This document shows, piece after piece, positions 5,136-31,479 of a stretch of 36,689 nucleotides of DNA. The position numbers and the translations under genes are program-made. The DNA lies in contig UCOA01000137.1 of the NCBI GenBank assembly GCA_900474095.1, forward strand, positions 1-36,689, written 5' to 3'. Position 1 is the first letter of the stretch; each line of letters begins with the position of its first letter. This DNA comes from Hyphomicrobiales bacterium. GTDB taxonomy: Bacteria > Pseudomonadota > Alphaproteobacteria > Rhizobiales > Rhizobiaceae. The notes under the pieces were generated by a model that saw only the letters and a list, made by a program, of their open reading frames with translations, was not told the origin of the DNA and did not search any database.

Positions 5136-5155
5136 TCGCGCTGGCTACTTAAGTT

Positions 5156-5168: not shown

Positions 5169-5189
5169 CATAGGTGTTTTGGCGATTAG

Positions 5190-5957
5190 TCAGTCGTCCG
5201 CCATTTTTCCACTGCGCGATTCCAGCCGATATCGGTTGCCGGGATAGACGAGTCGAGCAAAGGAGACGACGCGCTTGGACGACCATGTGCGCCGGCGGAT
5301 GAGCAGACAGGGCTCAGTGCGAAGAATCACCAGGAGCTTGCATTCCCAGGGTTGCGGCATGGCCGCTTCAACGATGTGTTCTGAGCCACTCAGCGGAGCC
5401 TCGGCAGTCAGATAGGCGTTTGGCGTCAGCGTGGTGAAGTCCTGTTCAAGGTAGCCAGGTGCAGCTTCCGGATTGACGAAACGGTCCTCGATCTGCACCG
5501 GAACACCGTTTTCGCTATGCACGATCAGCGAATGAAACACCGGTGCGCCGATCGTCAGGCCGAGCGCGTCGGCTACGTCCGGTGCTGCCTTCTCTTGCGC
5601 CAAAACTATCACCGAAGCCTGATGTACATGGCCTCGCTCGTCGATCTCCTCGGCAATGTTGCGCACCTCGAAGAGTTCGGAATAGCCTTTGCGCTCGGCA
5701 ACGAAGGAGCCGACACCCTGGATGCGTACCAGTTCGCCCTCGCTTGCCAGTTCGCGCAGCGCCCGGTTGGCGGTCATCTTGCTGACGCCTAGTTCGGCGA
5801 CCAGTTCGTTCTCCGAGGGAACGCGATGCTTGGGGGGCCACTCGCCGCTGTGGATCCGGTCGAGGATCATCTGCTTGACGCCGGCATATAGCGGCGCGCC
5901 GTCATTGTCGCTGTTGTCCCACTTCAATTGAGCGTTCTGGTCGTTGCTGCGTTTCAT
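5190..5957 (-). CDS. HutC-type GntR-family repressor (paralogue 1)
   Basis: A 255-residue GntR/HutC regulator. A winged helix (about residues 22-90) carries the family signature VPSENELVAELGVSKMTANR. A UTRA ligand-binding domain follows (about 105-250), ending in the HutC-like LVYPGNRYRLESR. HutC proteins bind urocanate or related imidazole compounds, which suggests a histidine-like inducer, but the ligand is inferred. The gene diverges from an amino acid ABC transporter, and a perfect palindrome at 6030-6043 lies between them. The start ATG at 5957 has AGGA 8 bases upstream. A second HutC-type regulator lies at 20252-21022 beside the true hut genes. The two differ clearly in sequence, so this one probably controls the 6156-12071 operon rather than the core pathway. 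Confidence 0.88.
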   Translation of the reverse strand: MKRSNDQNAQLKWDNSDNDGAPLYAGVKQMILDRIHSGEWPPKHRVPSENELVAELGVSKMTANRALRELASEGELVRIQGVGSFVAERKGYSELFEVRNIAEEIDERGHVHQASVIVLAQEKAAPDVADALGLTIGAPVFHSLIVHSENGVPVQIEDRFVNPEAAPGYLEQDFTTLTPNAYLTAEAPLSGSEHIVEAAMPQPWECKLLVILRTEPCLLIRRRTWSSKRVVSFARLVYPGNRYRLESRSGKMADD

Positions 5958-6029
5958 ATGCTCATTCCTTGGGCGAAATTAATTTTGCATTCAAATAGGG
6001 CTGCCCTCTTGCATACCATAAAAAATCAC

Positions 6030-6050
6030 ATATGGTACCATATACAACAT
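6030..6050. promoter_or_regulatory. Operator for the HutC-type regulator, upstream of the ABC transporter
   Basis: ATATGGTACCATAT (6030-6043) is a perfect 14-base palindrome. It runs into CCATATACAACAT (6038-6050), the second copy of the repeat at 5156. A possible -35 TTGCAT at 6009-6014 would place a weak -10 (TATGGT) inside the palindrome. The site lies between the divergent regulator and transporter genes, as expected for a GntR operator. The regulator assignment is inference. Confidence 0.65.
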
Positions 6051-6155
6051 GGATGTTCAGAGGCATTTCCAAACCTCGCCGTCCATCGAAGGATTTGTAA
6101 AGCCGGCGCAAGATCGGCGGACGTTGTTGAAGATAAACCTCAGAGGAACGTGAAC

Positions 6156-6995
6156 ATGAATCTATCCAAATTTCTGATGGCCGGTGCCGTTGCATTCGCA
6201 ACCCTTGCTGCTCCGGTAGCTCAGGCCAAGGACTGGAAGACCGTCACCATTACGCTCGAAGGCGCCTATGCACCTTGGAACCTGACCAACCCCGACGGCA
6301 CACTCGGCGGCTTCGAGCCGGAGCTTGCCAAATATCTCTGCGACCATATGAAGGTCGAGTGCAACCTCGTCGCTTCCGACTGGGACGGCATGATCCCGGC
6401 GCTCAACGCCGGCAAGTTCGACGTGATCATGGATGCGCTGTCGATCACCGAAGAGCGCAAGAAGATCATCGACTTCACTGTTCCTTATGCTCATACCCAC
6501 GCCGCCTTCGCGACGCTGAAGGATAGCCCGCTGGCAAACGCTGCCGGCACCGGCACGGTCGTCAAGCTCGATCCGGGCGCAACCGGCGTCAAGGAAATCG
6601 ATGCGATGAAGGCAGCCTTTGCCGGCAAGACAATCGGCATCCAGGCCGCGACCGTCTATTCGAAGTTCGTTTATGACAACTTCGGCGATATCGCCACGGT
6701 GCGCGAGTACAAGACCGGTGCTGAGCGCGACCTCGATCTCGAAACCGGTCGCATCGATCTCGTCTTCGACGACGCCGTCTACCTGATCTCCGCCTTCGAG
6801 AAGGCCAACGGCACGCTCGCCTTCACCGGCCCTGAAATCGGCGGCACGATCTTCGGTAGCGGCGAAGGCCTTGGCATCCGTCAGGCCGATACCGAACTGC
6901 GCGACATGTTCAACAAGGCTATCGAGGCAGCACTTGCCGACGGCACGGTCAAGACCTTGTCGATGAAGTGGTTCAAGACCGACGTGACCCCCTGA
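6156..6995 (+). CDS. Polar amino acid ABC transporter, periplasmic binding protein
   Basis: A 279-residue type 3 solute-binding protein of the HisJ/OccT group that would capture an amino acid in the periplasm. The signal peptide is MNLSKFLMAGAVAFATLA up to a likely cleavage after AQA at residue 24. Family signatures are GGFEPELAKYLC, WDGMIPALNAGKFDVIMDALSITEERKKIIDFT (about residues 80-110) and the C-terminal DGTVKTLSMKWF. The frame is open further upstream, but the signal peptide fixes the start at 6156. It is the first gene of an operon with two permeases, an ATPase, a HAL-family protein and an amine oxidase. The neighbouring HutC-type regulator suggests histidine or a derivative as ligand. 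Octopine/nopaline-type binding proteins are close relatives, so an opine-like ligand is also possible. Confidence 0.9.
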   Translation: MNLSKFLMAGAVAFATLAAPVAQAKDWKTVTITLEGAYAPWNLTNPDGTLGGFEPELAKYLCDHMKVECNLVASDWDGMIPALNAGKFDVIMDALSITEERKKIIDFTVPYAHTHAAFATLKDSPLANAAGTGTVVKLDPGATGVKEIDAMKAAFAGKTIGIQAATVYSKFVYDNFGDIATVREYKTGAERDLDLETGRIDLVFDDAVYLISAFEKANGTLAFTGPEIGGTIFGSGEGLGIRQADTELRDMFNKAIEAALADGTVKTLSMKWFKTDVTP

Positions 6996-7138: not shown

Positions 7139-7861
7139 ATGGCACTATTTCAAATGATCGGATTTGGCCCCACCGGTTGGGGCGGGCTGCTTCTCCTGGC
7201 AACCGTGATGACGCTTTGCGTGACCGCCGTTGCGCTGCTGATCGGCGCCATTCTCGGCTCGCTGGTCGCCTGGGCGAAGCTGTCGGGCAGCAGGATACTG
7301 CGCACGCTCGGCGGCACCTATACCACCGTGTTTCGCGGTGTCCCCGAGCTGCTGATCATCTATCTGGTCTATTTCGGCGGCTCGAGCGCGGTTACCGCCA
7401 TCGGTACGGCGATGGGCTTTGAGGGCTTTCTTGGTCTTCCCTCCTTCGCGGCCGGCGCGCTTGCGGTCGGCATCATTTCCGGCGCCTACCAGGCCGAGGT
7501 CTTTCGTGGTGCCTTTCTCGCCATCCCAAAGGGCGAGCTTGAAGCGGCGCAGGCGATCGGCATGAACCGGAGTTTGCGCTTCCGTCGCATCATCGGTCCG
7601 CAGGTCTTCCGATTTGCCATTCCTGGCATCGGCAATGTCTGGCAGCTCAGCCTCAAGGACTCAGCGCTCGTGTCCGTGACCGGTCTTGCCGATTTGATGC
7701 GGACCAGCCAGGTCGCCGCCGGTTCGACGAGGCAGCACTTCCTGTTCTTCATCGTCGGCGGCTGCCTCTATCTGATCCTCACCAGTTTCTCGGACCGCTT
7801 TTTCACCAGCGCCGAAAAGCGCGCCAATCGCAGCATGCCGACCAGTCTCGGCCAGGCCTGA
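7139..7861 (+). CDS. Polar amino acid ABC transporter permease 1 (HisQ/OccQ type)
   Basis: A 240-residue inner-membrane permease with about five hydrophobic segments. The HisM/HisQ-type domain has TVFRGVPELLIIYLVYFGG near residues 60-80. The EAA loop is around residues 130-155 (GAFLAIPKGELEAAQAIGMNRSL), which contacts the ATPase. It forms a heterodimeric channel with the permease encoded at 7877. There is no strong Shine-Dalgarno before 7139, so a start at the second ATG (7154) cannot be excluded. Confidence 0.9.
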   Translation: MALFQMIGFGPTGWGGLLLLATVMTLCVTAVALLIGAILGSLVAWAKLSGSRILRTLGGTYTTVFRGVPELLIIYLVYFGGSSAVTAIGTAMGFEGFLGLPSFAAGALAVGIISGAYQAEVFRGAFLAIPKGELEAAQAIGMNRSLRFRRIIGPQVFRFAIPGIGNVWQLSLKDSALVSVTGLADLMRTSQVAAGSTRQHFLFFIVGGCLYLILTSFSDRFFTSAEKRANRSMPTSLGQA

Positions 7862-7876
7862 TCAAGGAGACGCGCG

Positions 7877-8587
7877 ATGGATATCGCCTTCATGTTCGAG
7901 ACCCTGCAAACACTGCTGGCCGCGCTGCCGATGACGCTGGCGTTGTTTGTTCTCTCTGTCTTTTTCGGCGGTCTGCTCGCCCTCGCCATCGTCTGGATGC
8001 GGGTCAGCGGCAATGCGATCGCCCGCAAGTTTGCCAAGAGCTATATTTTTATCTTCCGCGGCTCGCCGCTGTTGATCCAGATGTTCCTGATCTTCTACGG
8101 CCTCGGGCAGTTCGGCTTCATCCGCTACAGCTTCCTCTGGCCGGCGCTGCGCGAACCCTTCGTCTGCGCCGTGCTGTCGCTGGCGCTCTGTACGGCGGGC
8201 TATACGGCTGAAATCTTCCGCTTCGGCCTGCGCGCCATTCCGGCCAAGGAGATCGAGGCGGCCCGGTCGGTCGGCATGTCCGGCTTCCTGCTGACCCGCC
8301 GCATCCTTGCCCCCGTCGCCTTCCGGCATGCTCTGCCTGCCTATTCGACCGAGGTGGTGATGATGGTGAAGTCGACGGCGCTCGCCAGCCTCGTCACGGT
8401 CTGGGAAGTAACCGGCGTTGCCCAGCGGCTGATCTCGCAGACTTACCGCACGATGGAAATCTTCCTCTGCGCTGCTGCGATCTATCTTGTCTTGAACTTC
8501 CTTATCCTGCAGGCCATGGCGCTGCTCGAATACAAGCTGACCCCACACCGCCGCGCGGCTCCCCTGTTTCCGGTGCCGCAGCGATGA
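7877..8587 (+). CDS. Polar amino acid ABC transporter permease 2 (HisM/OccM type)
   Basis: A 236-residue partner permease. It has the signatures [25 protein letters not shown] (about residues 55-80) and the EAA loop [21 protein letters not shown] (about 115-140). It starts 16 bases after the first permease behind an AAGGAGA Shine-Dalgarno. Its stop codon overlaps the start of the ATPase gene by four bases (ATGA), indicating translational coupling. Confidence 0.92.
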
Positions 8588-9390
8588 CCCCGACGACCCT
8601 CAACCAGACTGGAACGACCATGGCAGGCACGACCCGGCTTTCCGTCCGCAACATCCGCAAGAGCTTTGGCACGCATGAAGTGCTGCGCGGCATCTCGCTC
8701 GATGCCCGTGATGGCGACGTCATTTCGCTTCTCGGCGCCAGCGGCTCGGGCAAGTCTACCTTCCTGCGCTGTATCAACCTTCTGGAAGTCGCTGACCACG
8801 GCGAGATTTCCGTCGATGGCGAACTGATCCAGATGGAGCAACGCGGCGGCAAGAACGTCCCGGCCGACCGCCGCCAGGTGGACCGCATCCGCTCGGAACT
8901 CGGCATGGTCTTCCAGTCGTTCAATCTCTGGTCGCATATGACCATTCTTGAAAACGTCATCGAGGGGCCGGTTCATGTGTTGAAACGGCCACGCGCCAAG
9001 TGCATCGCCGAGGCGGAAGTGCTCCTGGAAAAGGTCGGCATCGCCGAGAAGCGCAATGCCTATCCCGCGCATCTGTCGGGCGGCCAGCAGCAGCGTGCGG
9101 CGATCGCCCGTTCGCTGGCGATGAAGCCGAAGGTGATGCTGTTCGACGAGCCGACCTCGGCGCTTGATCCGGAGCTGGTCGGCGAGGTGCTGCGCGTCAT
9201 GCGCTCGCTCGCCGAAGAAGGGATGACCATGCTGGTGGTCACCCATGAAATGAGCTTTGCGCGCAACGTTTCCAACCGTGTGATCTTCATGAAATCCGGC
9301 GAGATCGACAGCGACGGCGCGCCCGACGAACTGTTCGGCTCCGGAGGCTCCCCGAGCTTCCGCCAGTTCATCGGTAATTTCGGAGGCTGA
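8584..9390 (+). CDS. Polar amino acid ABC transporter ATP-binding protein (HisP/OccP type)
   Basis: A 268-residue cytoplasmic ATPase that energises uptake. Walker A is GASGSGKST (about residues 51-59). The Q-loop is in VFQSFNLW, the ABC signature is [16 protein letters not shown], Walker B is VMLFDEP, and the switch histidine is in VVTHEMSFA. The sequence is closest in style to HisP/GlnQ ATPases. The start at 8584 overlaps the permease stop. An internal ATG at 8620 ([11 protein letters not shown]) would give a more usual N-terminus and is a reasonable alternative. Confidence 0.93.
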
Positions 9391-9392
9391 TC

Positions 9393-10889
9393 GTGCAGGA
9401 TATCATGCTCGAAACGGCGCTCGACTGGCGTGCCGTGGCGGCGGTTGCCGATGGCGCAACGCTCTCTCTTTCTGGCGATGCCCGCCAGAGGGTGGAGACG
9501 GCCAGCCGCATCGTTTCGGCAATCGTCGAAAGCGGCGTGCGTGCCTATGGCGTCAATACCGGCGTCGGAGCGCTGGCCGATACGGTCGTCGATCGTCCCT
9601 CCCAGAGCCGCCTGTCGCGCAACATCATCCTCAGCCACGCCTGCGGCATTGGTCCACTGCTCACGCCGCGCGAAGTGCGCGCCATCATCGCGGCGCAGAT
9701 CGGCAATTTTTCGCATGGTCATTCAGGCGTTCGCCCAGTGATCGTCGAGGTCTTGCAGGCTTTCCTGCGCGAAGACTGCATTCCCGATGTGCCCTCGAAA
9801 GGTTCCGCCGGCTATCTCACCCACAACGCTCACATCGCGCTGGTGCTGATCGGCGAGGGTAGGGCGCGGTTGAAGGGAAAGCCGATGAGCGGCGCTGCGG
9901 CCCTGAAAACGCTCGGCATTGAGCCGCTGGTGCTGCAGGCCAAGGAAGGCCTGAGCCTCGTCAACGGCACTGCTTGTTCGACGGGTCTCGGCTCGTTGGC
10001 TCTGGCGCGCGTCGAGCGCTTTCTGGAATGGGCAGATGCCATCGCGGCGCTGACTATCGAGGCGCTCGGATGTCAGGCGGCGGCGTACGAGGCGCAGGTG
10101 CTGGCGCTTCGCACGTCGAAGGGCATCGAGAAGGTCGGCAGGGCGCTGCGTGAACGCCTCGCTGGCAGCGGCCTGATCGAGGCAGCCAAGGGCGTGCGCA
10201 CGCAAGATGCCCTGAGCCTTCGTTCCGTCCCGCATGCGCACGGCGCCGGCTGGGATGTCTTCGATTTTGTCGGCTCGATCGTCGATCAGGAACTTGCGTC
10301 CGTAACAGACAATCCCGCCGTATCCGGCACGCCGGAAGCCCCCCTTGTTTCGTCCGAAGCGCATGCCGTCGCACCCGCCCTCGGGCAGGCGCTCGATAGT
10401 CTGGCAGTCGCCATCGCCCAGATGTCGGCGATGAGCGAGCGGCGGATCGACCGGCTGGTCAATCCGCTCGTCAGCGGTCTGCCGGCATTCCTCGCGATCG
10501 ATCCGGGTGCCGGCTCCGGCTTCATGATCGCGCAATATACCGCAGCGGCACTTGCCGCAGAAAATCGGCGGCTCGGTGCGCCGGCTAGCCTCGACGGAGG
10601 CGTCACCTCGGCGCTGCAGGAGGATTTTCTCGCGCATCCGACGGCTGCGGCCTCCAAGCTGCTCGCAGTCATAGACAATGCCGAGCAGATTCTCGGCATC
10701 GAATTCGCCGCCGCCGCGCAGGCCCAGGATTTCAAGGTTGCGGTCGCGCCGCGAGCCGAGGGAACGGACGCGCTCCATCGTCTTATCCGCTCCGTTCTGC
10801 CAACTTATGCCGACGACCGGCCACTTGGCTGGGATCTGGAAAAGGCGCGCGATCTCCTGCGCATCGCGCCGCCGCCCGCCAGCGCTTGA
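9393..10889 (+). CDS. HAL/PAL-family protein lacking the MIO-forming Ala-Ser-Gly triad
   Basis: A 498-residue member of the aromatic amino acid ammonia-lyase superfamily, of the kind often labelled HutH2. It keeps YGVNTG (Tyr52), ILSHACG (His82), VNGTACSTG and QED, all shared with the true HutH at 15813-17348. At the cofactor site, true HutH reads [10 protein letters not shown] and this protein reads KGSAGYLTHNAH (residues 136-147). The Ala-Ser-Gly that cyclises to the electrophilic MIO group is absent, along with about three residues. The GNFHA loop and the substrate-side Tyr of HutH (QDPYCIR) are also changed (VSSEAHAVA and QDALSLR). The frame is intact over its full length, so this is a diverged enzyme and not decay. 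It begins two bases after the ATPase stop. The reaction is unknown; a non-MIO lyase, isomerase or binding role should be considered. Confidence 0.85.
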   Translation: MQDIMLETALDWRAVAAVADGATLSLSGDARQRVETASRIVSAIVESGVRAYGVNTGVGALADTVVDRPSQSRLSRNIILSHACGIGPLLTPREVRAIIAAQIGNFSHGHSGVRPVIVEVLQAFLREDCIPDVPSKGSAGYLTHNAHIALVLIGEGRARLKGKPMSGAAALKTLGIEPLVLQAKEGLSLVNGTACSTGLGSLALARVERFLEWADAIAALTIEALGCQAAAYEAQVLALRTSKGIEKVGRALRERLAGSGLIEAAKGVRTQDALSLRSVPHAHGAGWDVFDFVGSIVDQELASVTDNPAVSGTPEAPLVSSEAHAVAPALGQALDSLAVAIAQMSAMSERRIDRLVNPLVSGLPAFLAIDPGAGSGFMIAQYTAAALAAENRRLGAPASLDGGVTSALQEDFLAHPTAAASKLLAVIDNAEQILGIEFAAAAQAQDFKVAVAPRAEGTDALHRLIRSVLPTYADDRPLGWDLEKARDLLRIAPPPASA

Positions 10890-10913: not shown

Positions 10914-12071
10914 ATGACTGCCCTTTTCGACGTTGCTGTTGTCGGCCTCGGCGCCATGGGAAGTGCTGCCATTGCGCATCTTGCGGCGCGAGGCGTGAAG
11001 GTGATCGGCATCGACGCCTATTATCCCGCCCATGCGCTGAGTTCTTCGCACGGCGACAGCCGGCTGATCCGGCTCGGCTATTTCGAGGATCCATCCTACG
11101 TGCCCTTGTTGCAGCGCGCCTATGCGAATTGGCGGACGCTGGAGGCGCGGTTGTGCGGGGACATTCTGACGACCACCGGTGTCCTGCAGATCGGCAAGCC
11201 GGACAGCAAGATCGTCAGCGGCACGAAGAAAAGCTGTGCCCTTCACAATCTACCGCTGGAAACCCTTGATTCGGGCGAGATGCGCCGCCGCTTTCCTGTC
11301 TTTTCGCTTGATGAAGACGAGATCGCGCTGCTCGATCCGCAGGGCGGGTATCTTCGACCTGAAGCGGCCGTGATGGGCTATCTCAAGTTAGCGGCCAGCG
11401 ACGGAGCCGCCCTGCATTTCGGCGAGAGGGTGACGGCAATCGAGCCGGGCGGCGACGGCGTCACCATCATTTCCGCTACGGGGCGTTATTCGGCCAGCAA
11501 GGTCATCATCGCGACGGGCTCCTGGATTGGCGAACTGGTACCGGCGCTGCGTGACCATGCGGTACCGATCAAGCAGGTCGTCGCCTGGTACCAACCGACG
11601 GATGGGTTCATGACGATGCCGCAGCGCATGCCGGTCTTCATTCGTGATGAGGGGGAAAACGGGTCCTTCTTCGGTTTCCCGGCAATCGGCGTCGACGGTA
11701 TCAAGATCGGCCGTCATGCGCATTTCCGCGAGCCGATCGATCCGAACCAGCCCAATCCGCCGGTCAACGAGCGAGATACGCACCTTCTCGATAGCTTCAT
11801 CAACCACCGGCTTCCGGCGGCCGCGGGTGTGCGGGTGCGCTCGGCGACCTGTCGCTATACTATGCTGCCGAGCGAGGATTTCCTGCTCGATCTTCTGCCC
11901 GGAGACAAACGCATTGTCGTTGCATCCCCCTGTTCGGGCCATGGCTTCAAGTTCACCAGCGTCGTCGGCGAAATCCTTGCCGATCTGGCGCTCGATGGCG
12001 GCACGAACCTGCCGATCGGCGCCTTTTCGTTCAAGGCAATGGACCGGTTTCTGGCGACAAGGGCGGCGTGA
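10914..12071 (+). CDS. FAD-dependent amine oxidase, SolA / monomeric sarcosine oxidase family
   Basis: A 385-residue flavoprotein predicted to oxidise a secondary amine or N-methyl amino acid to imine plus H2O2. The dinucleotide fold is VAVVGLGAMGSAAIAHLAARG (residues 7-27). SSHGDSRLIR (about 44-53) matches the MSOX substrate/flavin loop. K264 in DGIKIGRH aligns with the oxygen-activating Lys265 of MSOX. C313 in ATCRYTMLPSEDF aligns with the cysteine that binds FAD covalently (Cys315). The C-terminal motif SPCSGHGFKF is present. All catalytic landmarks are intact, so it should be active. It is the last gene of the transporter operon, 24 bases after the HAL-like gene, which suggests an N-substituted amino acid substrate. 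The exact substrate (sarcosine, N-methyltryptophan, pipecolate or other) cannot be told. Confidence 0.88.
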   Translation: MTALFDVAVVGLGAMGSAAIAHLAARGVKVIGIDAYYPAHALSSSHGDSRLIRLGYFEDPSYVPLLQRAYANWRTLEARLCGDILTTTGVLQIGKPDSKIVSGTKKSCALHNLPLETLDSGEMRRRFPVFSLDEDEIALLDPQGGYLRPEAAVMGYLKLAASDGAALHFGERVTAIEPGGDGVTIISATGRYSASKVIIATGSWIGELVPALRDHAVPIKQVVAWYQPTDGFMTMPQRMPVFIRDEGENGSFFGFPAIGVDGIKIGRHAHFREPIDPNQPNPPVNERDTHLLDSFINHRLPAAAGVRVRSATCRYTMLPSEDFLLDLLPGDKRIVVASPCSGHGFKFTSVVGEILADLALDGGTNLPIGAFSFKAMDRFLATRAA

Positions 12072-13323: not shown

Positions 13324-14993
<1,670 letters not shown>

Positions 14994-14997
<4 letters not shown>

Positions 14998-15812
14998 TTG
15001 GTTCCCCTTGTTGTGTTTGCCAGTGTCAGCGCTGATGCTTCGATGCGCGTGAGAATGTCTTTGAGGTGAATGCGAAGTCTGGCCGCCTTGGCCTCGTCAT
15101 ATGCGAAGGGCGGTGCTTCCGTGCTCAGATGTGTGGATTGCGCCAGCTCCATCTGGATCGCATGCACGCCGGTTTCCGGCTGGCCGTAGTGGCGTGTCGT
15201 CCAGCCGCCCTTGAAGCGGCCATTGAGGATGCTGGTGTAGCCCGGCGCATTGAGGACGACATCGACAGTTGCGTTCTGGATGGCCGGATCGCAGGTCCTG
15301 CCGCTGTCGGTGCCGATGTTGAAATCAGGCAGCATGCCGTCGAACAGGAACGGAATATCCGAGCGAATGGAATGGCAGTCATAGAGAACTGCGATGCCAT
15401 GGATCGTCTTGACGCGCTCGATTTCGGCCGCGAGTGCGGCATGATAAGGCGCGTGAAATTCGGCAAGCCGGGCGGCAATGTCGGCTTCGGTCGGTTTCTC
15501 CCCGTCCTTCCAGATCCCCACACCGTCAAAATCGGTGCCCGGAATGAGCCCGGTCGTGTTCTGGCCGGGATAAAGGCTGACACCTTCCGGATCGCGATTG
15601 GCGTCGATGACGTAGCGATGGAAGGTGGCACGCACGGTCGTGACCTCCGGCAGCAATCCGTCATAGGCGCGATGAATATGCCAGTCGGTGTCGGCGAGAA
15701 TGCGGCCATTGTCGTTCAGCCGCTCCCAGATAACCGGCGGGACGTCGGTGCCAGTATGCGGAAAGCCGAGGATGACCGGCGAAGTGCCCTGTTTGATTTC
15801 GAAGACGGTCAC
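14994..15812 (-). CDS. hutG: N-formylglutamate deformylase
   Basis: A 272-residue amidohydrolase that splits N-formylglutamate into glutamate and formate, the last step of the five-step pathway begun by HutF. Motifs include [29 protein letters not shown] and [13 protein letters not shown]. It starts with GTG at 15812, directly against the hutH TAA stop, and overlaps hutU by four bases. The presence of both hutG and hutF shows use of the formylglutamate branch rather than the one-step formiminoglutamase. Confidence 0.95.
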
Positions 15813-17348
15813 TTACGCCTCCAGACCCGGAAGAATGCCGGCGGAAACGGCTGCATTCAGGGCGCCAGTGGCAATAAGGTCGCTCGCCGCCTTGAGGTCG
15901 GTCGCCATGTAGCGGTCGATCTCCAGCGTCGGGACGACGGAGCGGATGGCGGCGATGGCCCTGGTCAGTTCCGGGCTGGTGACGAGCGGTGCGCGGAAGT
16001 CAATGCCCTGTGCTGCCGTCAGCGCCTCGACGCCGATGATCGAAAACAGGTTGTCCGTCATCTGCAGAAGACGGCGGGCGCCGTGGCAGGCCATGGAGAC
16101 ATGATCTTCCTGGTTGGCCGACGTGGGGGTGGAATCGACCGAGGCCGGGTGCGACATCTGCTTGTTTTCCGACATCAAGGCTGCCGAGGTGACTTCGGCG
16201 ATCATCAGGCCGGAGTTGAGGCCGGGCTTCTTGGCCAAGAATGCCGGAAGGCCATAGGAGAGGGCCGGATCGACCAAGAGCGCGATGCGGCGCTGCGAGA
16301 TGGCGCCGATTTCACAGATGGCGAGCGCGATCTGGTCGGCCGCGAAGGCGACCGGCTCGGCGTGGAAATTGCCGCCCGATACGACGGAATTGTCCGACAG
16401 CACCAGCGGATTGTCGGTGACGGCGTTGGCTTCGATTTCAAGCGTGCGGGCAACGGAACGCATGAGATCGAGGCAGGCGCCGTCGACCTGCGGCTGGCAG
16501 CGGATGCAATAGGGGTCCTGGACGCGCTCGTCACCTTCGATATGGCTCTCGCGGATCACCGAGCTCTTGAGCAGGCCGCGCAGGGCGGCGGCCGCATCGA
16601 TCTGGCCCTTATGGCCGCGCAGCGTATGGATGTCGGGATGGAAGGGGGCCGAGGAGCCCATGGCGGCGTCGGTCGAAAGCGCGCCCGTGATCAGCGCCGA
16701 TTGCGCCGCGCGGTGGGCGCGGAACAGGCCGGCAAGGGCGAGTGCAGTGGAGACCTGCGTGCCGTTGATCAGCGCGAGGCCTTCCTTGGCGGCAAGTACG
16801 ACCGGCGTCAGGCCGGCGCGCTCAAGCGCGGCGCGGCCGTCAAGCTGCTCGCCATTGAAGAAGGCTTCGCCTTCGCCCATCATGACGGCAGCCAGATGCG
16901 CCAGCGGCGCGAGATCGCCGGAGGCGCCAACGGAGCCCTTTTCCGGGATGACCGGGATGACGCCCTTTTCGAGCATGCCCTCGATCAGACGGACGAGTTC
17001 GAGCCGGACACCCGATGCGCCGCGTCCGAGAGAGACGAGCTTCAGCGCCATGATCAGGCGGACGATGTTTTCGGCAAGCGGCTGGCCGACGCCGCAGCAG
17101 TGCGAGAGGATCAGGTTGCGCTGCAGGGTGGCCACGTCGGCGGCATCGATCTTGATGCTCGCCAGTTTACCGAAACCGGTGTTGATGCCGTAGACCGGCG
17201 CATTGCCGGCGGCGATCTCGGCGATGCGGCCGGCGGCCTTCTCGATGCCCTTGTCGAAGGAGGGATCAAGCCGGGCTGCCTCGCCGGTCCAGTAGATGGT
17301 TTCAAGCGTCGAAAGCGGGACGGAGCCCGGCTGCAGAATAAGAGTCAT
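15813..17348 (-). CDS. hutH: Histidine ammonia-lyase
   Basis: A 511-residue MIO enzyme deaminating histidine to urocanate. With the start at 17348 ([15 protein letters not shown] upstream), numbering matches the Pseudomonas enzyme exactly: Tyr53 in VYGINTG, His83 in LILSHCCG, and the MIO triad Ala142-Ser143-Gly144 in [30 protein letters not shown] and NQEDHVSM complete the active site. A GTG at 17384 would add 12 residues and is less likely. It is the second gene of hutIHGU, 48 bases after hutI. It serves as the intact internal reference for the MIO-less paralogue at 9393-10889. Confidence 0.97.
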
Positions 17349-17396
17349 CAAGAAATCCTCACCAATGCGCGGAGCCAGGCTCACGCGTCTCCAATT

Positions 17397-18647
17397 TCAA
17401 TGTCCGTTGCGGACGCGCGCATGCAGCGGGTTGAAGCCCATGCGGTAGACGAGTTCAGCCGGTCGCTCGATATTCCAGATGGCGAAATCGGCCCATTTTC
17501 CGGGTTCCAGCGTCCCCACTTCGTCGACGAGCCCAAGTGCGCGTGCCGCCTCCCGCGTCACGCCGGCGATGCATTCGGTGACCGTCATGCCGAACAAGGT
17601 CGCCGCCATGTTCATGGTCAGAAGCAGCGAAGTGAGCGGCGAGGTGCCGGGATTGCTATCGGTGGCGATCGCCATCGTAACACCGGCCTTGCGGAACAGC
17701 TCGATCGGCGGCTTCTTGGTTTCGCGGATGAAGTAAAAGGCGCCGGGCAGGATGACGGCGATCGTGCCGCTCTTCGCCATGGCTTCGGCGCCGGCTTCGT
17801 CGGTATATTCGAGATGATCGGCCGACAGCGCGCCATACTCGGCGGCAAGGGCGGCGCCGTGCAGATTGGAGAGTTGGTCGGCATGCAGCTTGACAGGCAG
17901 GCCATGCGCCTTGGCCGCATCGAAGACCTGCCGCATCTCGTCCGTCGAAAAGGCGATGCCTTCGCAAAAGCCGTCAACGGCGTCGGCCAGCCCTTGGGCC
18001 GCGATCGCGGGCAGCATCTCGCCTGCGACCTTGGCGATATAGCCGGCCTTGTCGCCCTTGAATTCCGGCGGCAGCGCATGGGCGCCGAGGAAGGTGGTGC
18101 GGATGGCCATATCGCGTTCTTCGCCGAGGCGGCGCGCGGCACGCAGGGTCTTCGCTTCGTTTTCGAGGTCGAGGCCGTAGCCGGACTTGATTTCCACCGT
18201 CGTGACGCCCTCGGCCATCAGCGCGTCCAGACGGGGGAGCGTCTGCCGCACGAGTTCGTCTTCGCTGGCTTCACGCAGAGAACGCACGGAGGAGACAATG
18301 CCACCGCCGGCGCGCGCCACTTCCTCATAGCTTGCGCCTGAAAGCCGCATTTCGAATTCGTTGGAGCGGTCTCCGGCATGGACCAGATGGGTGTGGCAGT
18401 CGATCAGGCCGGGCGTGATCCAGCGGCCGCTGCAATCTATGACGTCGGCGGCATTTTCGATGGAGAAAGGCAGGTCTGCTTCGCTGCCGGCATAGACGAT
18501 ACGACCGTCTTCGACGGCTATGGCGCCATTCTCAATGAGGCCGAGACCCGGCAAGGCAGGGTCCAGGGTCATGAGCCGCGCGTTTCGCCAAAGGCGATCG
18601 CAAGCGGTTGGCCGGGATCCGTCCGGTGCCGATTTTATGGAAGACAT
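17397..18647 (-). CDS. hutI: Imidazolonepropionase
   Basis: A 416-residue metal-dependent amidohydrolase opening imidazolone propionate to formimidoylglutamate. Metal ligands are seen in [29 protein letters not shown] and the [10 protein letters not shown] aspartate motif. [10 protein letters not shown] is also typical. The start at 18647 ([10 protein letters not shown]) gives the usual length. The open frame reaches further upstream but without family similarity. It is the first gene of hutIHGU and divergent from hutF, sharing an operator at 18676-18691. Confidence 0.95.
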
Positions 18648-18650
18648 CGT

Positions 18651-18691
18651 TTTCCAGCCTTTCCTTTTCGTGCTATTATGTATAGACATAA
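18651..18691. promoter_or_regulatory. Divergent hutI/hutF promoter region with a HutC-type operator
   Basis: TTATGTATAGACATAA (18676-18691) has six-base arms around ATAG, and its core TGTATAGACA resembles the known HutC site core TGTATGTACA. Toward hutF, TTTCCA (18651-18656), 17 bases and TATTAT (18674-18679) form a plausible promoter whose -10 overlaps the operator. Toward hutI, TTGCGC and TATACA spaced 16 bases on the minus strand also overlap it. One repressor dimer could shut both directions. Confidence 0.6.
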
Positions 18692-18748
18692 AGAAAATGA
18701 GCGCAAGTGGTTTTTTGATTTTATCCGAAAACGGGAGAGGGTTCGGCT

Positions 18749-20098
18749 TTGGACAGCATTCATGTGAAATCGGCCTTGTTGCCGGCAGGGTGGCAGAAGG
18801 ATGTGCGGATATCGTACGACGGCTGGCGGATTGTCTCGGTCGAAACCGGAGCGGCGGCACAGGCGGGTGACGAGCGCCACGATATCCTCGTATCCGGCAT
18901 GCCGAACCTCCACAGCCACGCATTCCAGCGCGGCATGGCGGGGCTTGCGGAAACGCGCGGGCCTGGTGCCGACAGTTTCTGGAGCTGGCGCAATGTGATG
19001 TATCGCTTCGCCCTGTCGATGACGCCGGATCATGTCGAGGCCGTCGCCAGCCAGCTCTATATGGAAATGCTGGAAGCCGGGTTTTCCCGCGTCGGCGAAT
19101 TTCATTATCTCCACCACGATATCGACGGCGGCCCCTATGCCGATATTTCCGAGATGGCCCAGCGGATCGCCTCGGCGGCTTCCAAGACAGGCATCGGCCT
19201 GACGCTGCTGCCGGTCTTCTATGCGCATTCGACCTTTGGCGGTGCGGCTCCGACCGAGGGCCAGCGGCGCTTCATCAACACGATCGAGAGCTTCGAGCGG
19301 CTGCTCGACGGCTGCCATCGGGCGGTCAAGGGTTTGCCGGATGGACGCGTTGGCGTGGCGCCGCATAGCCTGCGGGCGGTGACGCCGGAAGAATTGGCGA
19401 CCGTCGTTGCAATGGCAAAGGATGGGCCGATCCATATTCATGTGGCCGAGCAGGTCAAGGAAGTGGAGGATTGCATTGCATGGTCCGGCGCGCGACCGGT
19501 CGAATGGCTGCTCGATCATGCCGGGCTTGATGGCCGCTGGTGCCTGATTCATGCGACGCATATGACGGATGACGAAACCCGGCGCATGGCGCAAAGCAAG
19601 GCCATCGCCGGCCTTTGCCCGGTGACGGAGGCCAATCTTGGCGATGGCACGTTCAACGCGGTCGTGTTCGATGAAGCGGGCGGGAAATTCGGCATCGGCT
19701 CGGATTCCAATGTCCTGATCGGACTTCCCGATGAGCTTCGCCAGCTTGAATATTCTCAGCGCCTGTTGCATCGCTCGCGCAATGTGCTGGCCGCGCCGGG
19801 TCAATCGACTGGGCTCGCCTTGTTCGACGGCGCGGTCGAAGGCGGCGGTATTGCCTTGGGATCGGGGGCATCGAAGTCGGGCATTGCCGCCGGCAATCCG
19901 GCGGATTTCGTCAGCCTGCGGGTGCCGGATGGTGATCTCGCTGATGACGCGGCCCTCGATTCGTGGCTCTTTGCCAACGGGACGAAGCCCGACAGTGTCT
20001 GGGTGGCGGGCCGCAAACAGGTCGAGGGCGGGCGGCATCACAGGCGGGACGAGATATCAGCCCGGTTCCGCACCGTGATGCGCGAACTGCTGGCCTGA
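18749..20098 (+). CDS. hutF: Formimidoylglutamate deiminase
   Basis: A 449-residue amidohydrolase converting formimidoylglutamate to N-formylglutamate and ammonia, feeding HutG. Metal-binding [36 protein letters not shown] and [10 protein letters not shown] are all present, as is the long loop [14 protein letters not shown] typical of HutF. It begins with TTG at 18749 behind a GGGAGAGG sequence about eight bases away; no ATG or GTG alternative fits as well. It is divergent from hutI and upstream of hutC. Confidence 0.94.
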
Positions 20099-20251: not shown

Positions 20252-21022
20252 GTGGTGAAATTGCAGGATGCCAGCCCGAATGTTGAGACGCCGCCTGCCG
20301 ACGTGGCAAGCGACCTGTCGCTGCATCAGCGCATTCTCGGCGACATCGAGGATCGTATCCTTTCCGGCGAATGGCAGCCTGGCTTTCGCATTCCGTTCGA
20401 GGTCGATCTTGCCGAGCAGTACAAATGCTCGCGGATGACCGTGAACAAAGCGCTGACGCAACTGGCGAAGACAGGGCTGATCGAGCGGCGGCGGAAATCG
20501 GGCAGCTACGTGACGCAGCCGCGCGCCCAGTCGGCGGTGCTCGAAATCCGCGACATCAAGCTCGAAGTCCAGTCATTGGGTCTCGCCTATGACTATAAGC
20601 TGTCCGCGAAGACACGGCGCCGGAGCAATGCCGAAGATAGATCCAGGCTCGGCCTCGACGCGGCAGCACCCATTCTGGATGTGACCTGCACGCATTTTGC
20701 CGGCAATCGGCCGTTTTGCGTCGAACAGCGCCTGATCAATCTGGCGGCGGTGCCGGATGCGGCGGCCGAGAGTTTCGAAGATGTGGCGCCTGGCCCCTGG
20801 CTCTTGAACCGGGTGCCATGGAGTGCGGCCGAACATACGATACGGGCGGTGGCGGCGGCTGAACCGGTCGCCACGGCCCTTGGCATTGCAGTTGGAACCG
20901 CCTGCCTGACGGTGGAGCGGCGCACCTGGAGTAATGGCTCCTACATCACCCATGTGCGCCTGATCTATCCGGGCGAGCGGCATGCGTTGGTTGCCAATTT
21001 CACGCCGTCGCAGCCGAAGTGA
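20252..21022 (+). CDS. hutC: Histidine utilisation repressor (HutC, GntR family)
   Basis: A 256-residue GntR/HutC repressor, probably of the hut operons, with urocanate as the expected inducer. The winged helix (about residues 24-92) has the LHQRILGDIEDRILSGEW start and IPFEVDLAEQYKCSRMTVNKAL. The UTRA domain follows and ends THVRLIYPGERHALVANF. The FEV in place of the common SE-EL motif (IPFEVDLAEQY) is typical of true HutC proteins. The GTG start at 20252 follows GAAGGTGAG. Its adjacency to hutF and the matching operator at 18676-18691 argue that this copy, not the one at 5190-5957, controls core hut genes. Confidence 0.9.
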   Translation: MVKLQDASPNVETPPADVASDLSLHQRILGDIEDRILSGEWQPGFRIPFEVDLAEQYKCSRMTVNKALTQLAKTGLIERRRKSGSYVTQPRAQSAVLEIRDIKLEVQSLGLAYDYKLSAKTRRRSNAEDRSRLGLDAAAPILDVTCTHFAGNRPFCVEQRLINLAAVPDAAAESFEDVAPGPWLLNRVPWSAAEHTIRAVAAAEPVATALGIAVGTACLTVERRTWSNGSYITHVRLIYPGERHALVANFTPSQPK

Positions 21023-21317: not shown

Positions 21318-21890
21318 TCAGCCGGCCGTTTTTGCGTTCACGCCAAATTCGAGGCTCATCTGCAGGAGTTCGTCCCATAGGCTTTCGGCGAAGCCGCGCA
21401 GGACCATGAGTTCGAAGCTATCCACATCGGTTCGCGTGATCAGCGCTGAGATGTGGCCGATCAACGTCATGGCCGAGTGGCCGATGGCGAAGTTCGCCCG
21501 ATCGAGATCGACAGCCGTGCCCTTGGCGAGGACGGCTTCGACGGATGCACCACTGATGCCGATCCGGACACGACCGTGGCCTTGATCGGCAATCGACGCC
21601 TTGCCTGCAAGGAGCGTCGCCTTGCCGGCGATATCCGCAGCAGAAAGAGGCGCATCGCCGACGACGAACCACTGTCCGGGGCCGTAAGGGCGCACGGCAT
21701 GAGGGGCGCCATCGCCGATCTGCGGGATCAAGTTCTGCAGGCCGCCACTTCCATGTGCGGCGAGCACCTGCAGTACATGGCCTTCCGGCAGGGCTCCGAG
21801 CGTTATCCTTGCCGTCATCGAGGAGGCGCCGAAAGAACCGGATCTGGCGCCCGCCAGAGCGCAACGATGAAGGAGAGCGAAATCAACCAT
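21318..21890 (-). CDS. soxG: Sarcosine oxidase gamma subunit / N-methylglutamate dehydrogenase subunit D
   Basis: A 190-residue SoxG-type subunit, part of the heterotetrameric flavoenzyme. It carries the GCV-T-like segments IRIG-x-SGASVEAVLAKGTAVDL (read as RVRIGISGASVEAVLAKGT) and GHSAMTLIGHISALITR. The start MVDFALLHR at 21890 overlaps the end of the alpha-subunit gene by eight bases; the open frame before it is not coding. Last in the soxBDAG order. Whether the enzyme uses sarcosine or N-methylglutamate is discussed under the cluster finding. Confidence 0.85.
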   Translation of the reverse strand: MVDFALLHRCALAGARSGSFGASSMTARITLGALPEGHVLQVLAAHGSGGLQNLIPQIGDGAPHAVRPYGPGQWFVVGDAPLSAADIAGKATLLAGKASIADQGHGRVRIGISGASVEAVLAKGTAVDLDRANFAIGHSAMTLIGHISALITRTDVDSFELMVLRGFAESLWDELLQMSLEFGVNAKTAG

Positions 21891-24840
21891 GGAGTTTTCC
21901 GTTTTCCGGATCGAAGAAGACAGGACTGCAGAGCACGGCCCTGGTGTATTCATTTCTCAGGTCGTTCCAAACCGTGACATGCTCGCCATGCCGCTTCGGC
22001 CCATGCTTGACGAGCGCCAGGCCGATGGTCGAGCCGAGGTTGGGCGAATAGCAACTGGAGGTAACATAACCCTGATCGTTTTCCAGCGACGGAGTGGCGC
22101 CATCTGAAAGGATGTGCGAGCCGGTCTTGAATGTTGTTGCGGGGTCGAGCGGCTTGACGCCGACGAGCGATGGGCGGTCCTGCGCCACCATGCCCTCGCG
22201 CGACAGCATCGCTTTGCCGATGAAGTCCGGTTTGGTTGGCGAGACCATCTTCGCAAATCCGAGATCGGCCGGAACGACGGTGCCGTTGATCTCGGAATGG
22301 GTGACATGACCTTTCTCGATGCGCATGACACCGAGCGCTTCGACGCCATAGGGGCAGATGCCGTGAGGCTTGCCCGCTGCCATGATCGCATCCGCGACGG
22401 CTTCGCCATAACCGGCGGGAACTGCCAGCTCATAGGCCAATTCGCCGGAGAAGGAGATGCGGAACAGCCGGCCGGTCAGTTTCCCGTCGAAAAGCGAGAC
22501 TTGCCTGGCACCTAGGAACGGGAAGGCCGCGTCGGAAATATCGTCGTCGACCAGAGCATGCAGGATGGTGCGCGACTTCGGCCCGGCAACGGCAATCTGC
22601 GCCCACTGGTCCGTGGAGGAGGCGAATTGCACGTCGAGGTCGGGCCAGAGTGCCTGGGCGCAAAATTCCAGATGGTTCATAACGCCGGCCGCATAGGCCG
22701 TGGTCGTCGTCATGAAGAAGTGGTTTTCGCTGAGCCGGCTCGTCGTGCCGTCGTCATAGATCAGCCCGTCTTCGCGCAGCATCAGGCCATAACGCGCCTT
22801 GCCGACCGGCAGTTTAAGGAAGGCGTTGCAATAGATGCGGTTCAGGAATTCTGCGGCGTCCTTGCCGAAGATCTCGATCTTGCCCAGCGTCGAGACATCG
22901 CAGATGCCGGCGTTCTGGCGAACATTCAGCACCTCGCGATCGACGCTTTCGCGCCATTTCGTTTCGCCCGCCATCGGAAACCAGGAGGAGCGATACCAGA
23001 GCCCGGTCTCGACGAAGACCGCGCCGTTCTTCGTTGCCCAGTCATGCAGCGGCGATTTGCGCACCGGTTGGAAATGCCTGCCCTTCGAAGCGCCGGTCAA
23101 TGCGCCGAAGGAGAGCGGCGTATAGAACGGGCGGAACGTCGTGGTGCCGACATCGGCCGGCGAAACCTTGCGCGCTTCCGCCAGAATGCCGATGGCGTTG
23201 ATGTTGGACAGCTTGCCCTGATCGCTCGCCATGCCGTTGGTGGTGTAGCGCTTGGCAAGCTCCACATGGCCATAGCCTTCGCTGACGGCAAGGCCGAGAT
23301 CCTTCAGATGCACATCGTTCTGGTAGTCGACAAAGGCCTTGCCCTTTGCGCCGCGCACATACCAGAGCGGCTTGGCGACGGTAGCGGTGTCGATTGCGGC
23401 GACGAAGGCGGGTGAGGCATGGGAAAAGCCGAGGGCTCGTAGAGCGCGTGCGGCTTTCTCGGCGCCGTCGGCAAGGCAGGCTTCGGTTGCGCCGAGACCT
23501 GCCGCAGAACCGGCTATGGTCAGGCCATCCTGCGTTTCCGGCGCGAGAAAGGCGGCCTTTGCATCCGACCAGATCGGCTTTGCGCCACGGTGGCAGGCAA
23601 GATGGATGATCGGGCTCCAGCCGCCCGCCATGGCAAGAGCATCGGCCTTGATCGTTACCGGCGCGCCATCCTTGATAACTGTGACGCTGGTGAGGGCTTT
23701 GCCGCCTTTGGCGTCCTGCACCACCGCGCCGGGGAAAACGGGTGCGCGCCCGCTCCAGGACGAAGCGGCGCTGTGACGGGCGTCGACAATGGCGGCGACC
23801 TCAAGTCCGGCTGCTTCGAGGTCGGTCGCCGTCCTGTAGCCGGATTCGTCGTTGGTGAAAATGACGGTACGCTTGCCGGGCGCGACGGCTTGCCGGTTGA
23901 GATAGGAGCGCATGGCGCCCCCCATCATCACGCCCGGAATATCATTGCCACCGAAGACGAGCGGGCGCTCTTCCGCGCCAGACGCGAGGATCGCGTGCTT
24001 GGCGGCAATGCGCCACAGACGCTCTACCGGCCGGTTAGGGTCGATGGAGGCCGTATTTTTCTGCACGCTTTCAACTGCACCGAAGACATTGCCGTCATAC
24101 CAGCCGAAGACGGTGGTACGCGAAAAGATGCGCACATTGGGAAGGCTGGCCAGTTCGGCAAAAGTCTCCCCAAGGACGTCGTCCGCGGCTTTCTCGCCGA
24201 TTGCCGCGGTCTCCGCGAGAAGCGAGCCGCCGGGCTCAAAGCCTTCATCGGCAAGGATGACACGCGCCCCTGCTCGACCGGCAGTCAGTGCGGCTGCAAG
24301 ACCGGCCGGGCCGGCGCCGATCACCAGCAGGTCGCAATGTGCCCAGCATTTCTCGTAAGCGTCCGGATCGGGCTCGTAGGTGGCGCGGCCAAGACCGGCT
24401 GCCTTGCGGATAATCGGCTCATAGACCGTTTCCCAGAAAGCCGCCGGCCACATGAAGGTCTTGTAGTAGAAACCGGCGCCGAGGAAGGGTGAGAGCAGGC
24501 TGTTGATGGCGCCGAGGTCGAAGTCGACCGAGGGCCAGCGGTTCTGGCTCCTGGCCGTCAGGCCGCTGTAGAGTTCGACCAGCGTTGCGCGCGTGTTCGC
24601 TTCGGTGCGGCCTCCTTCGCCGATGGTAACCAACGCGTTCGGCTCGGCGGCACCGGCGGTCAGGATGCCGCGGGGACGATGGTATTTGAAGCTGCGGCCG
24701 ACAAGCTGGCGGCCGTTTGCGAGCAGCGCCGAGGCGAGAGTGTCGCCGGCAAACCCTTGCATCGGCTTGCCGTCGAAGGTGAAGTGCAGCGGCTTGGCGC
24801 GGTCGATCCGGCCGCCCCTGGAGAGACGGAAGGAACTCAT
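21883..24840 (-). CDS. soxA: Sarcosine oxidase alpha subunit / N-methylglutamate dehydrogenase subunit C
   Basis: A 985-residue large subunit. The N-terminal ferredoxin-like segment includes LHFTFDGKPMQGFAGDTLASALLANG. A dinucleotide-binding domain follows (LLVIGAGPAGLAAALTAGRAG, about residues 175-195), then a SoxA-type middle domain. The C-terminal half is an aminomethyltransferase (GCV-T) domain that receives the C1 unit on tetrahydrofolate (from about residue 600; WRESVDREVLNVRQNAGICD, EALGVMRIEKGH). The start MSSFRLSRGG at 24840 overlaps the soxD stop by four bases (ATGA). The length is normal for the family (about 980-1000). Confidence 0.93.
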   Translation of the reverse strand: MSSFRLSRGGRIDRAKPLHFTFDGKPMQGFAGDTLASALLANGRQLVGRSFKYHRPRGILTAGAAEPNALVTIGEGGRTEANTRATLVELYSGLTARSQNRWPSVDFDLGAINSLLSPFLGAGFYYKTFMWPAAFWETVYEPIIRKAAGLGRATYEPDPDAYEKCWAHCDLLVIGAGPAGLAAALTAGRAGARVILADEGFEPGGSLLAETAAIGEKAADDVLGETFAELASLPNVRIFSRTTVFGWYDGNVFGAVESVQKNTASIDPNRPVERLWRIAAKHAILASGAEERPLVFGGNDIPGVMMGGAMRSYLNRQAVAPGKRTVIFTNDESGYRTATDLEAAGLEVAAIVDARHSAASSWSGRAPVFPGAVVQDAKGGKALTSVTVIKDGAPVTIKADALAMAGGWSPIIHLACHRGAKPIWSDAKAAFLAPETQDGLTIAGSAAGLGATEACLADGAEKAARALRALGFSHASPAFVAAIDTATVAKPLWYVRGAKGKAFVDYQNDVHLKDLGLAVSEGYGHVELAKRYTTNGMASDQGKLSNINAIGILAEARKVSPADVGTTTFRPFYTPLSFGALTGASKGRHFQPVRKSPLHDWATKNGAVFVETGLWYRSSWFPMAGETKWRESVDREVLNVRQNAGICDVSTLGKIEIFGKDAAEFLNRIYCNAFLKLPVGKARYGLMLREDGLIYDDGTTSRLSENHFFMTTTTAYAAGVMNHLEFCAQALWPDLDVQFASSTDQWAQIAVAGPKSRTILHALVDDDISDAAFPFLGARQVSLFDGKLTGRLFRISFSGELAYELAVPAGYGEAVADAIMAAGKPHGICPYGVEALGVMRIEKGHVTHSEINGTVVPADLGFAKMVSPTKPDFIGKAMLSREGMVAQDRPSLVGVKPLDPATTFKTGSHILSDGATPSLENDQGYVTSSCYSPNLGSTIGLALVKHGPKRHGEHVTVWNDLRNEYTRAVLCSPVFFDPENGKLHG

Positions 24841-25109
24841 GCGGTCTCTCCCTGCGCGGCAGCGTCCACGACGGCATAGACCGCATGGGTCACGGTATCG
24901 CGTTCGACGATCAGCCAGCGGCGGCAGCCGGAGGTGTGATGCCAATGCTCTTTATGTCGACCGCGCGGATTGTCACGCAGGTAGACGTAAACGTACCAGG
25001 CGTTCTCACCGGCATCCGGTGCCGGGCGAGAAATGCCGGCGTCACCCCTAACGGTGAATTCTTCCTTGGGGCGCGGCCCGCAATGGGGGCAGGCGATCAG
25101 GCTGGCCAT
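24837..25109 (-). CDS. soxD: Sarcosine oxidase delta subunit / N-methylglutamate dehydrogenase subunit B
   Basis: A 90-residue zinc-binding small subunit. Cys7 and Cys10 (CPHC), a histidine of the EHWHHTSGC block (residues 54-62) and Cys62 fit the known Cys-Cys-His-Cys zinc site of this subunit. WYVYVYLRDNPRG is also characteristic. It sits between the beta and alpha subunit genes, nine bases after soxB and overlapping soxA by four. Confidence 0.92.
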   Translation of the reverse strand: MASLIACPHCGPRPKEEFTVRGDAGISRPAPDAGENAWYVYVYLRDNPRGRHKEHWHHTSGCRRWLIVERDTVTHAVYAVVDAAAQGETA

Positions 25110-25118
25110 TTAAAGTCC

Positions 25119-26369: not shown

Positions 26370-26442
26370 GATCGATTCACCGTGAGAACTGGGAGCGATC
26401 ATGACAGGATTGATTTTCGCAACTTGCACAAATGAGACGTAT

Positions 26443-29317: not shown

Positions 29318-29319
29318 TC

Positions 29320-30042: not shown

Positions 30043-30057
30043 GGCAGGGACATAGAG

Positions 30058-31386: not shown

Positions 31387-31479
31387 CCCTCAAATCACAT
31401 GCGGCCGTCGTCTGATCTCCCAAGCCAGGCGGCGGCCATTTCCATGAAAAAGTGTCTGAATAATCCAAAGGGGAACACA

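Follow-up and report, generated by a model that had tools for sequence, protein, structure and literature searches.

Within a 36,689-nucleotide stretch of DNA from a Hyphomicrobiales bacterium of the Rhizobiaceae (assembly GCA_900474095.1, contig UCOA01000137.1), hereafter called the window, an intact open reading frame (ORF) of 498 codons with a GTG start (9393-10889, plus strand) codes for a protein of the histidine ammonia-lyase (HAL) family which lacks the Ala-Ser-Gly triad. In ordinary HALs, this triad gives rise to the electrophilic 4-methylideneimidazole-5-one (MIO) cofactor, which is required for their activity. Comparison of the protein with its relatives and of their gene neighbourhoods makes it rather likely that it is a lyase acting on some N-trimethylhistidine, and we consider it probable, with somewhat less assurance, that it is an MIO-free hercynine trimethylamine-lyase feeding the histidine utilization (hut) pathway.

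The loss of the triad was evident from the translation and from an alignment with the ordinary HutH coded in the same window (15813-17384, minus strand): exactly three residues, Ala-Ser-Gly, are gone, and the protein reads KGSAG---YLTHNAH in the corresponding segment (KGSAGYLTHNAH, residues 136-147, codons 9798-9833). A first-pass annotation of the window had claimed this loss in an intact paralogue, together with a change of the Tyr of QDPYCIR to Leu (Leu274), a replacement of the GNFHA loop (here by SSEAHA) and the retention of the equivalents of Tyr52, His82 and NGT (Asn191-Gly-Thr), and the alignment bore out each of these points. The protein belongs to the Lyase_aromatic superfamily, with a PF00221 match of 466 bits (cut-off 27.3) over nearly its whole length, and scores 454.7 against the hutH equivalog TIGR01225, below the cut-off of 539.15 and far below the 728.9 of the neighbouring HutH. 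The deletion and the score below the cut-off together rule out an ordinary HutH. The closest solved relatives found in a PDB search were HALs (299.8 bits for 7tqr vs. 187.1 for the ergothionase 6s7j), and ergothionase was not among the matches listed when a 61-residue fragment spanning the loop served as query. The database records seen annotate such genes as histidine ammonia-lyase, many records of Rhizobium plasmids included.

The altered segment is shared by all close relatives. Among 201 loci (overlapping copies included, ORFs of at least 400 codons between stops), all 172 HAL-family ORFs nearest to the window protein read GSxG-Y and none carries Ala-Ser-Gly; the GYLTHNAH-type segment is thus conserved in the orthologues at its G-Y, and the local error considered in the first-pass annotation fails as an explanation. 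A sequencing error or pseudogene is likewise ruled out by the open frame and the conserved MIO-less clade. The triad is present in 67 of the 69 ORFs nearest to HutH, and the remaining two read ACG and AAD, the AAD one having ergothionase as its best PDB match. When 101 genomes were searched (own included), 28 others, including 23 of the same genus, had a close relative (57-92% identity), and 23 of 398 genomes of the phylum (own included) contained a clade match at E <= 1e-130, reaching other classes of Pseudomonadota. Burkholderia cenocepacia has a clade member, and so has a plasmid of Priestia megaterium (Bacillota), where the segment reads GSLGYLNHQAH.

For tree building and residue counts, representatives of at least 380 amino acids were chosen, namely 41 of the 172 MIO-less ORFs (<80% identity), 15 of the 69 HutH-nearest ORFs (<75%) and 4 of 5 ergothionase-type ORFs. 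A tree was built without the loop columns from 23 of the 41 representatives, excluding loci L199 and L180 and adding three MIO-type rows (L202, L213 and L225; L225 and L044 are one and the same gene) and three ergothionase-type rows. In this tree, the 23 MIO-less proteins formed one clade (bootstrap/SH-aLRT 98/96), which joined ordinary HutH at 84/80. Free trees set the ergothionase-type proteins apart from this clade, and trees joining them to it were not rejected by the approximately unbiased (AU) test, neither in a first analysis without L199 and L180 (p-AU 0.541) nor with the tree described here (p-AU 0.076). A loss of MIO independent of that in ergothionase is favoured, though short of proof.

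According to its predicted structure (mean pLDDT, a per-residue confidence score, of 91; pTM, a predicted template modelling score, of 0.91), the protein adopts the full HAL fold, with template modelling (TM) scores of 0.92 to HAL of Pseudomonas putida (1gkj) and 0.89 to ergothionase (6s7j). Tyr52, His82, Asn191, Gln271, Arg277 and Glu410 are invariant in all 41 clade representatives and presumably correspond to Tyr53, His83, Asn195, Gln277, Arg283 and Glu414 of HAL. Because these six active-site residues are kept, a mere binding protein, as one option of the first-pass annotation had it, is unlikely, and its other option, a conserved fold re-purposed for different chemistry, is probably correct. 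Leu occupies the Tyr280 position in 41 of 41 clade representatives and in the 6s7j stretch as well as in all four ergothionase-type rows, two of which are truncated at the end of the locus; 12 of 12 core HutH proteins (12 of the 15 rows; L199, L044 and L182 excluded) have Tyr there. Asn191 is kept in the clade and in HutH and is Ser in the four ergothionase-type rows. Three aromatic residues are specific to the clade, Tyr141 (41/41), Trp213 (40/41) and Tyr382 (40/41), the last being Lys in the four ergothionase-type rows. With HutH (EC 4.3.1.3; PDB 1b8f/1gkj), the protein shares the fold, 34-40% identity, the six active-site equivalents, the hut neighbourhood and presumably the product urocanate, whereas it differs by the missing triad, Leu for Tyr280, the replaced GNFHA loop and the score under the hutH cut-off.

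Ergothionase is described in PMC13405746 as a HAL fold without MIO which converts ergothioneine to trimethylamine and thiourocanate. Because it does so, the departure of a trimethylammonium group without MIO is known chemistry, and MIO-free trimethylamine elimination in a HAL fold already has a precedent, which the first-pass annotation had missed. The window protein would convert hercynine (N-alpha-trimethylhistidine, histidine betaine) to trans-urocanate and trimethylamine in an MIO-independent reaction. HAL needs MIO for the poor leaving group NH3; because a quaternary ammonium is itself a ready leaving group, the cofactor may be dispensable here. The six conserved residues would bind the imidazole and carboxylate groups and abstract the beta-proton, and the deletion of Ala-Ser-Gly, the exchange of Tyr280 for Leu and the altered GNFHA loop may provide the space which the N(CH3)3 group, being bulky, requires, perhaps with a contribution from Tyr141, Trp213 and Tyr382. 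The operon's transporter would import the betaine under the control of HutC, and urocanate would be passed on to HutU, HutI, HutF and HutG. The trimethylamine would either be excreted or demethylated via trimethylamine N-oxide (TMAO), dimethylamine, methylamine and N-methylglutamate. Relatives in the clade may take ring-modified betaines, e.g. S-methyl ergothioneine.

The likeness to ergothionase of Treponema denticola (6s7j) comprises the MIO-less HAL fold, the Leu at the Tyr280 position and, as we infer, a histidine betaine as the substrate from which trimethylamine is eliminated. The two differ in the loop (GYLTH in the window clade, GEGD or GCAD in ergothionase), in Ser and Lys replacing Asn191 and Tyr382 in the ergothionase-type rows, and in the neighbouring gene, which codes for thiourocanate hydratase in the ergothionase type and for ordinary HutU in the window. 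A further paralogue in the same genome, P0003 on contig C111, matches ergothionase 6s7j best in the PDB (196.4 bits, next 138.5); a thiourocanate hydratase gene (1041.7, cut-off 930) and tblastn relatives of ErtD (66%) and ErtE (47%) are located nearby. The loop deletions of both proteins differ as well (three residues, with Tyr, in the window protein; one residue, with Asp kept, in P0003). Because this ergothionase-type operon is separate and the HutU of the window is ordinary, the window gene probably does not code for an ergothioneine enzyme, and ergothionase proper was rejected on these two points together with the HAL-like PDB matches. Because the adjoining HutU is ordinary, plain urocanate is the expected product, which points to hercynine as the natural substrate.

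In the window, the lyase gene follows a transporter operon of the HisJQMP/Occ type, precedes a gene for a SolA-like oxidase and faces the hutU-hutG-hutH-hutI genes (Table 1). The true start of the gene for the binding protein is probably downstream of the ORF start listed.

Table 1. Features of the window, with strand and supporting matches (scores and cut-offs in bits).
Feature	Position	Strand	Evidence
HutC-type repressor, divergent to operon	5190..5957	-	TIGR02018 300.4 > 220
Periplasmic amino-acid-type binding protein (SBP_bac_3)	5928..6995	+	PF00497; TIGR01096 220.4 < 256.35
ABC permease, HisQ/OccQ-like	7139..7861	+	profile matches
ABC permease, ArtM/HisM/OccM-like	7877..8587	+	profile matches
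ABC ATPase, HisP-like	8584..9390	+	profile matches
MIO-less HAL-family lyase (HutH1-type), 498 aa, predicted hercynine trimethylamine-lyase	9393..10889	+	PF00221, sub-cut-off hutH score, structure model
Segment with Ala-Ser-Gly deleted, KGSAGYLTHNAH	9798..9833	+	translation and alignment
SolA-like N-methyl amino acid oxidase	10914..12071	+	NF008425 419.2 > 257
HutU, ordinary urocanate hydratase	13324..14997	-	hutU 964.8 (cut-off 375); thiourocanate hydratase 681.1 (cut-off 930)
HutG, N-formylglutamate deformylase	14994..15812	-	TIGR02017 384.6 > 278.75
HutH, ordinary MIO histidine ammonia-lyase, Ala-Ser-Gly present	15813..17384	-	hutH 728.9 > 539.15
HutI, imidazolonepropionase	17397..18923	-	TIGR01224 464.5 > 298.15
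HutF, formimidoylglutamate deiminase	18749..20098	+	NF006683 742.5 > 654
Second HutC-type repressor	20252..21022	+	TIGR02018 296 > 220
SoxG/SoxA/SoxB-like genes	21318..26429	-	soxB 720.1 > 529.45; soxA 1430.3 > 1164; soxG 118 < 143.95
Glutamine amidotransferase, GXGXG, glutamate-synthase-like and type III glutamine-synthetase-like genes	28412..32787	+	TIGR03105 682.9 > 469.6; other three: general domain matches

The neighbourhoods of relatives were counted for 117 distinct of 120 loci at an identity floor of 40%; the counts are weighted to Rhizobiaceae (best 80 of 588 relatives), and where a locus stops close to the gene, as some do, a neighbour scored as absent may lie past its end. Within 10 kb, 94 of these loci contain a HutC-like regulator and 106 contain HutC, a hut enzyme or both. 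In 101 loci, a same-strand transporter was found within 5.5 kb, of HisJQMP type in 76, ProXWV/HutXWV-like in 15 and OsmF-like in 10, the latter two adding up to 25 loci with a betaine-type transporter. The one OsmF-type operon of the ten which was read (L133) contains genes for an OsmF-like binding protein, a ProV-like ATPase and ProW-like permeases, all below the cut-offs, and for HutC (278.4, cut-off 220). HutH was encoded within 10 kb in 53 loci, SolA within 10 kb in 44, every one of them of the HisJQMP type, and a gene similar to sarcosine dehydrogenase was near in 11. On the P. megaterium plasmid (one of 12 matched records read), the MIO-less 'hutH' lies beside hutU, hutI and a gene of the agmatinase family, and no ordinary hutH was found in 21 kb. 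Because this cluster contains hutU and hutI without an ordinary hutH, urocanate is the likely product. The first-pass annotation had left the function open-ended; the neighbours instead indicate histidine betaines as the substrate class, and its pointer toward trying N-methylated amino acids gains support. A clade member on a plasmid of Rhizobium daejeonense (L072) has no hut genes around it and is accompanied by genes for a PhnD-like binding protein, a fatty-acid-desaturase-like protein, cytochrome c and a molybdopterin-binding protein, perhaps another betaine route.

The genome also contains genes for a further use of trimethylamine, namely a trimethylamine monooxygenase (850.1, cut-off 675), a TMAO demethylase (1247.8, cut-off 1100), a TMAO permease (836.8, cut-off 690) and a DmmA-family protein (115.7, cut-off 60) encoded near a PF11927 gene. 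Positions 21318-33834 of the window hold the sox-like, glutamate-synthase-like and glutamine-synthetase-like genes and purU. We take the Sox-like proteins to be an N-methylglutamate dehydrogenase, and the products of the genes at 28412..32787 presumably represent N-methylglutamate synthase and gamma-glutamylmethylamide synthetase. Among 15 genomes examined from the same genus, 13 have the hut genes followed by this presumed N-methylglutamate cluster. The resulting gene set from trimethylamine to glutamate is consistent with trimethylamine release, without being a test of it. A GbdR-like regulator, below its cut-off, is also encoded in the 21318-33834 region.

Several observations weigh against hercynine as the substrate or against trimethylamine release. 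The transporter is of the amino-acid type (HisJQMP), not of the betaine type, in the 76 loci which include the window type, and HutXWV of Sinorhizobium presumably also transports histidine. In eleven of the 117 loci, the vicinity yielded no match to the HutC query and no hut enzyme, and ErtD occurs in one locus only. The pocket is nearer to HAL than to ergothionase at Asn191 and contains Tyr382 where the ergothionase type has Lys, and the PDB scores given above place the whole protein closer to HAL. In four genomes (G008, G034, G036 and G054), the N-methylglutamate cluster lies on other contigs. Outside the genus, co-occurrence of the lyase with trimethylamine genes gave little or no signal: of 5 lyase holders, 1 has trimethylamine monooxygenase and 3 have N-methylglutamate synthase, as against 8 and 18, respectively, of 70 non-holders. 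Finally, SolA, whose known members presumably act on secondary N-methyl amino acids, is unexplained by the release of trimethylamine; our guess is that it demethylates monomethylhistidine for HutH.

The SolA-like oxidase directly downstream of the lyase gene and in the 44 loci mentioned, the Occ/HisJQMP-type transporter and the methylamine genes of the window would also fit a lyase or other enzyme which acts on N-alpha-monomethyl- or dimethylhistidine or on an opine-type N-carboxyalkyl histidine such as histopine, partnered by SolA and the methylamine genes. We regard this as unlikely, since without MIO a protonatable amine should leave as poorly as NH3, no SolA was found near 73 of the 117 loci, among them every one of the 25 with a betaine-type transporter, and both ergothionase and an S-methyl-ergothioneine-type cluster concern quaternary amines. 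The latter cluster is located on plasmid pAt of Agrobacterium tumefaciens 15955. A clade member of about 55% identity, the sole gene of the HAL family found within 21 kb, lies there with genes for S-methyl thiourocanate hydratase (975.8, cut-off 880), ErtD (782.8, cut-off 600), ErtE (576.1, cut-off 520) and ProXWV. Judging from the curated names of these families, this member is the obvious candidate for removing trimethylamine from S-methyl ergothioneine, which also speaks for the preferred reading of the window protein as a trimethylamine-lyase of a histidine betaine. It likewise lends some weight to the idea that the window protein is the same kind of MIO-free lyase working mainly on another or ring-modified histidine betaine (ergothioneine, ergothioneine sulfonate or S-methyl ergothioneine), as does an ergothioneine sulfonate pathway of A. 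radiobacter which is in print, to go by a title cited in PMC13405746. The ordinary HutU of the window (964.8 vs. 681.1 bits for thiourocanate hydratase), the separate ergothionase-type operon on C111 and the single locus with ErtD speak against this reading, which we rate as slightly less plausible still than the preceding one.

A catalytically dead HAL paralogue, serving as a binding protein, a sensor or a partner of HutH, e.g. in mixed tetramers, would account for the lack of MIO and for the presence of HutH in the 53 loci noted above. It is improbable in view of the six catalytic residues invariant in 41 representatives, the position of the gene behind dedicated transporters, and the presence of HutU without a HutH match within 10 kb in L073, L186 and L199 (in L120, this may be an edge effect). 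Action on histidine itself without MIO, for which the HAL fold, the retained residues and the adjacent hut genes might be cited, is most improbable, since ordinary HAL activity requires MIO and loss of the ordinary hutH impairs growth on histidine in Pseudomonas aeruginosa PAO1, according to PMC12772324 (a clade member in PAO1 was not checked for by sequence).

The preferred assignment as a hercynine trimethylamine-lyase may extend to a gene known from Pseudomonas. In P. fluorescens SBW25, according to a review, a urocanate transporter gene, hutXWV and hutH1 are inserted between hutU and hutH. In our set, L188, L191, L193 and L197 show the gene order hutC, hutU, ProXWV-like genes, MIO-less gene, ordinary hutH, hutI and hutG, and the reviewed layout resembles theirs, which suggests that hutH1 may belong to the MIO-less clade. 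HutH1 of SBW25 is annotated as a histidase, and the position between hutXWV and hutH is not the arrangement of the window, which instead has another transporter type and SolA. In P. aeruginosa, PA5093 is annotated as a HutH-like lyase and PA5091 as hutG. PMC12772324 calls PA5093 hutG.

Somewhat short of an even chance, in our estimate, is the broader proposal that at least two bacterial phyla carry a second MIO-free HAL lineage which arose from HutH independently of ergothionase, opens an entry for hercynine into the hut pathway, counts the unexplained hutH1 of Pseudomonas among its members and is hidden in databases under the name 'histidine ammonia-lyase'. If true, a misnamed gene would gain a defined reaction, the second 'histidase' of some hut operons, dispensable for growth on histidine, would be explained, and soil- and plant-associated bacteria would possess a means of turning histidine betaine into urocanate and trimethylamine. 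The clade would also provide a second group of MIO-free enzymes for studying cofactor loss in the presence of a good leaving group. Neither a hercynine lyase nor an MIO-free HutH1 was reported in the titles and abstract openings of the open-access literature among the matches listed, a source which leaves most subscription journals uncovered, so that an earlier description is possible.

Some further HAL relatives were observed in the loci collected. In L199 (G666), one hut cluster holds two different MIO-less lyases: besides the clade member, hutG, hutI and hutU, it contains a second MIO-less relative (5013-6551, minus strand, loop GSLGAADLAQLAQ) which matches ergothionase best in the PDB (268 bits) and lies near ProV/ProW-like genes. 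In L182 (G186), a relative bearing Ala-Ser-Gly (6246-7691, plus strand, 41% identity to HutH) adjoins a gene for thiourocanate hydratase (963 bits, above the cut-off) and is possibly an MIO-bearing enzyme in a thiourocanate route. A divergent HAL relative in L044/L225 (G284) has Ala-Cys-Gly replacing Ala-Ser-Gly, and L065 (G018, contig 2) carries another copy of the lyase gene, which is split between two frames and lies behind ProXWV-like genes and HutC.
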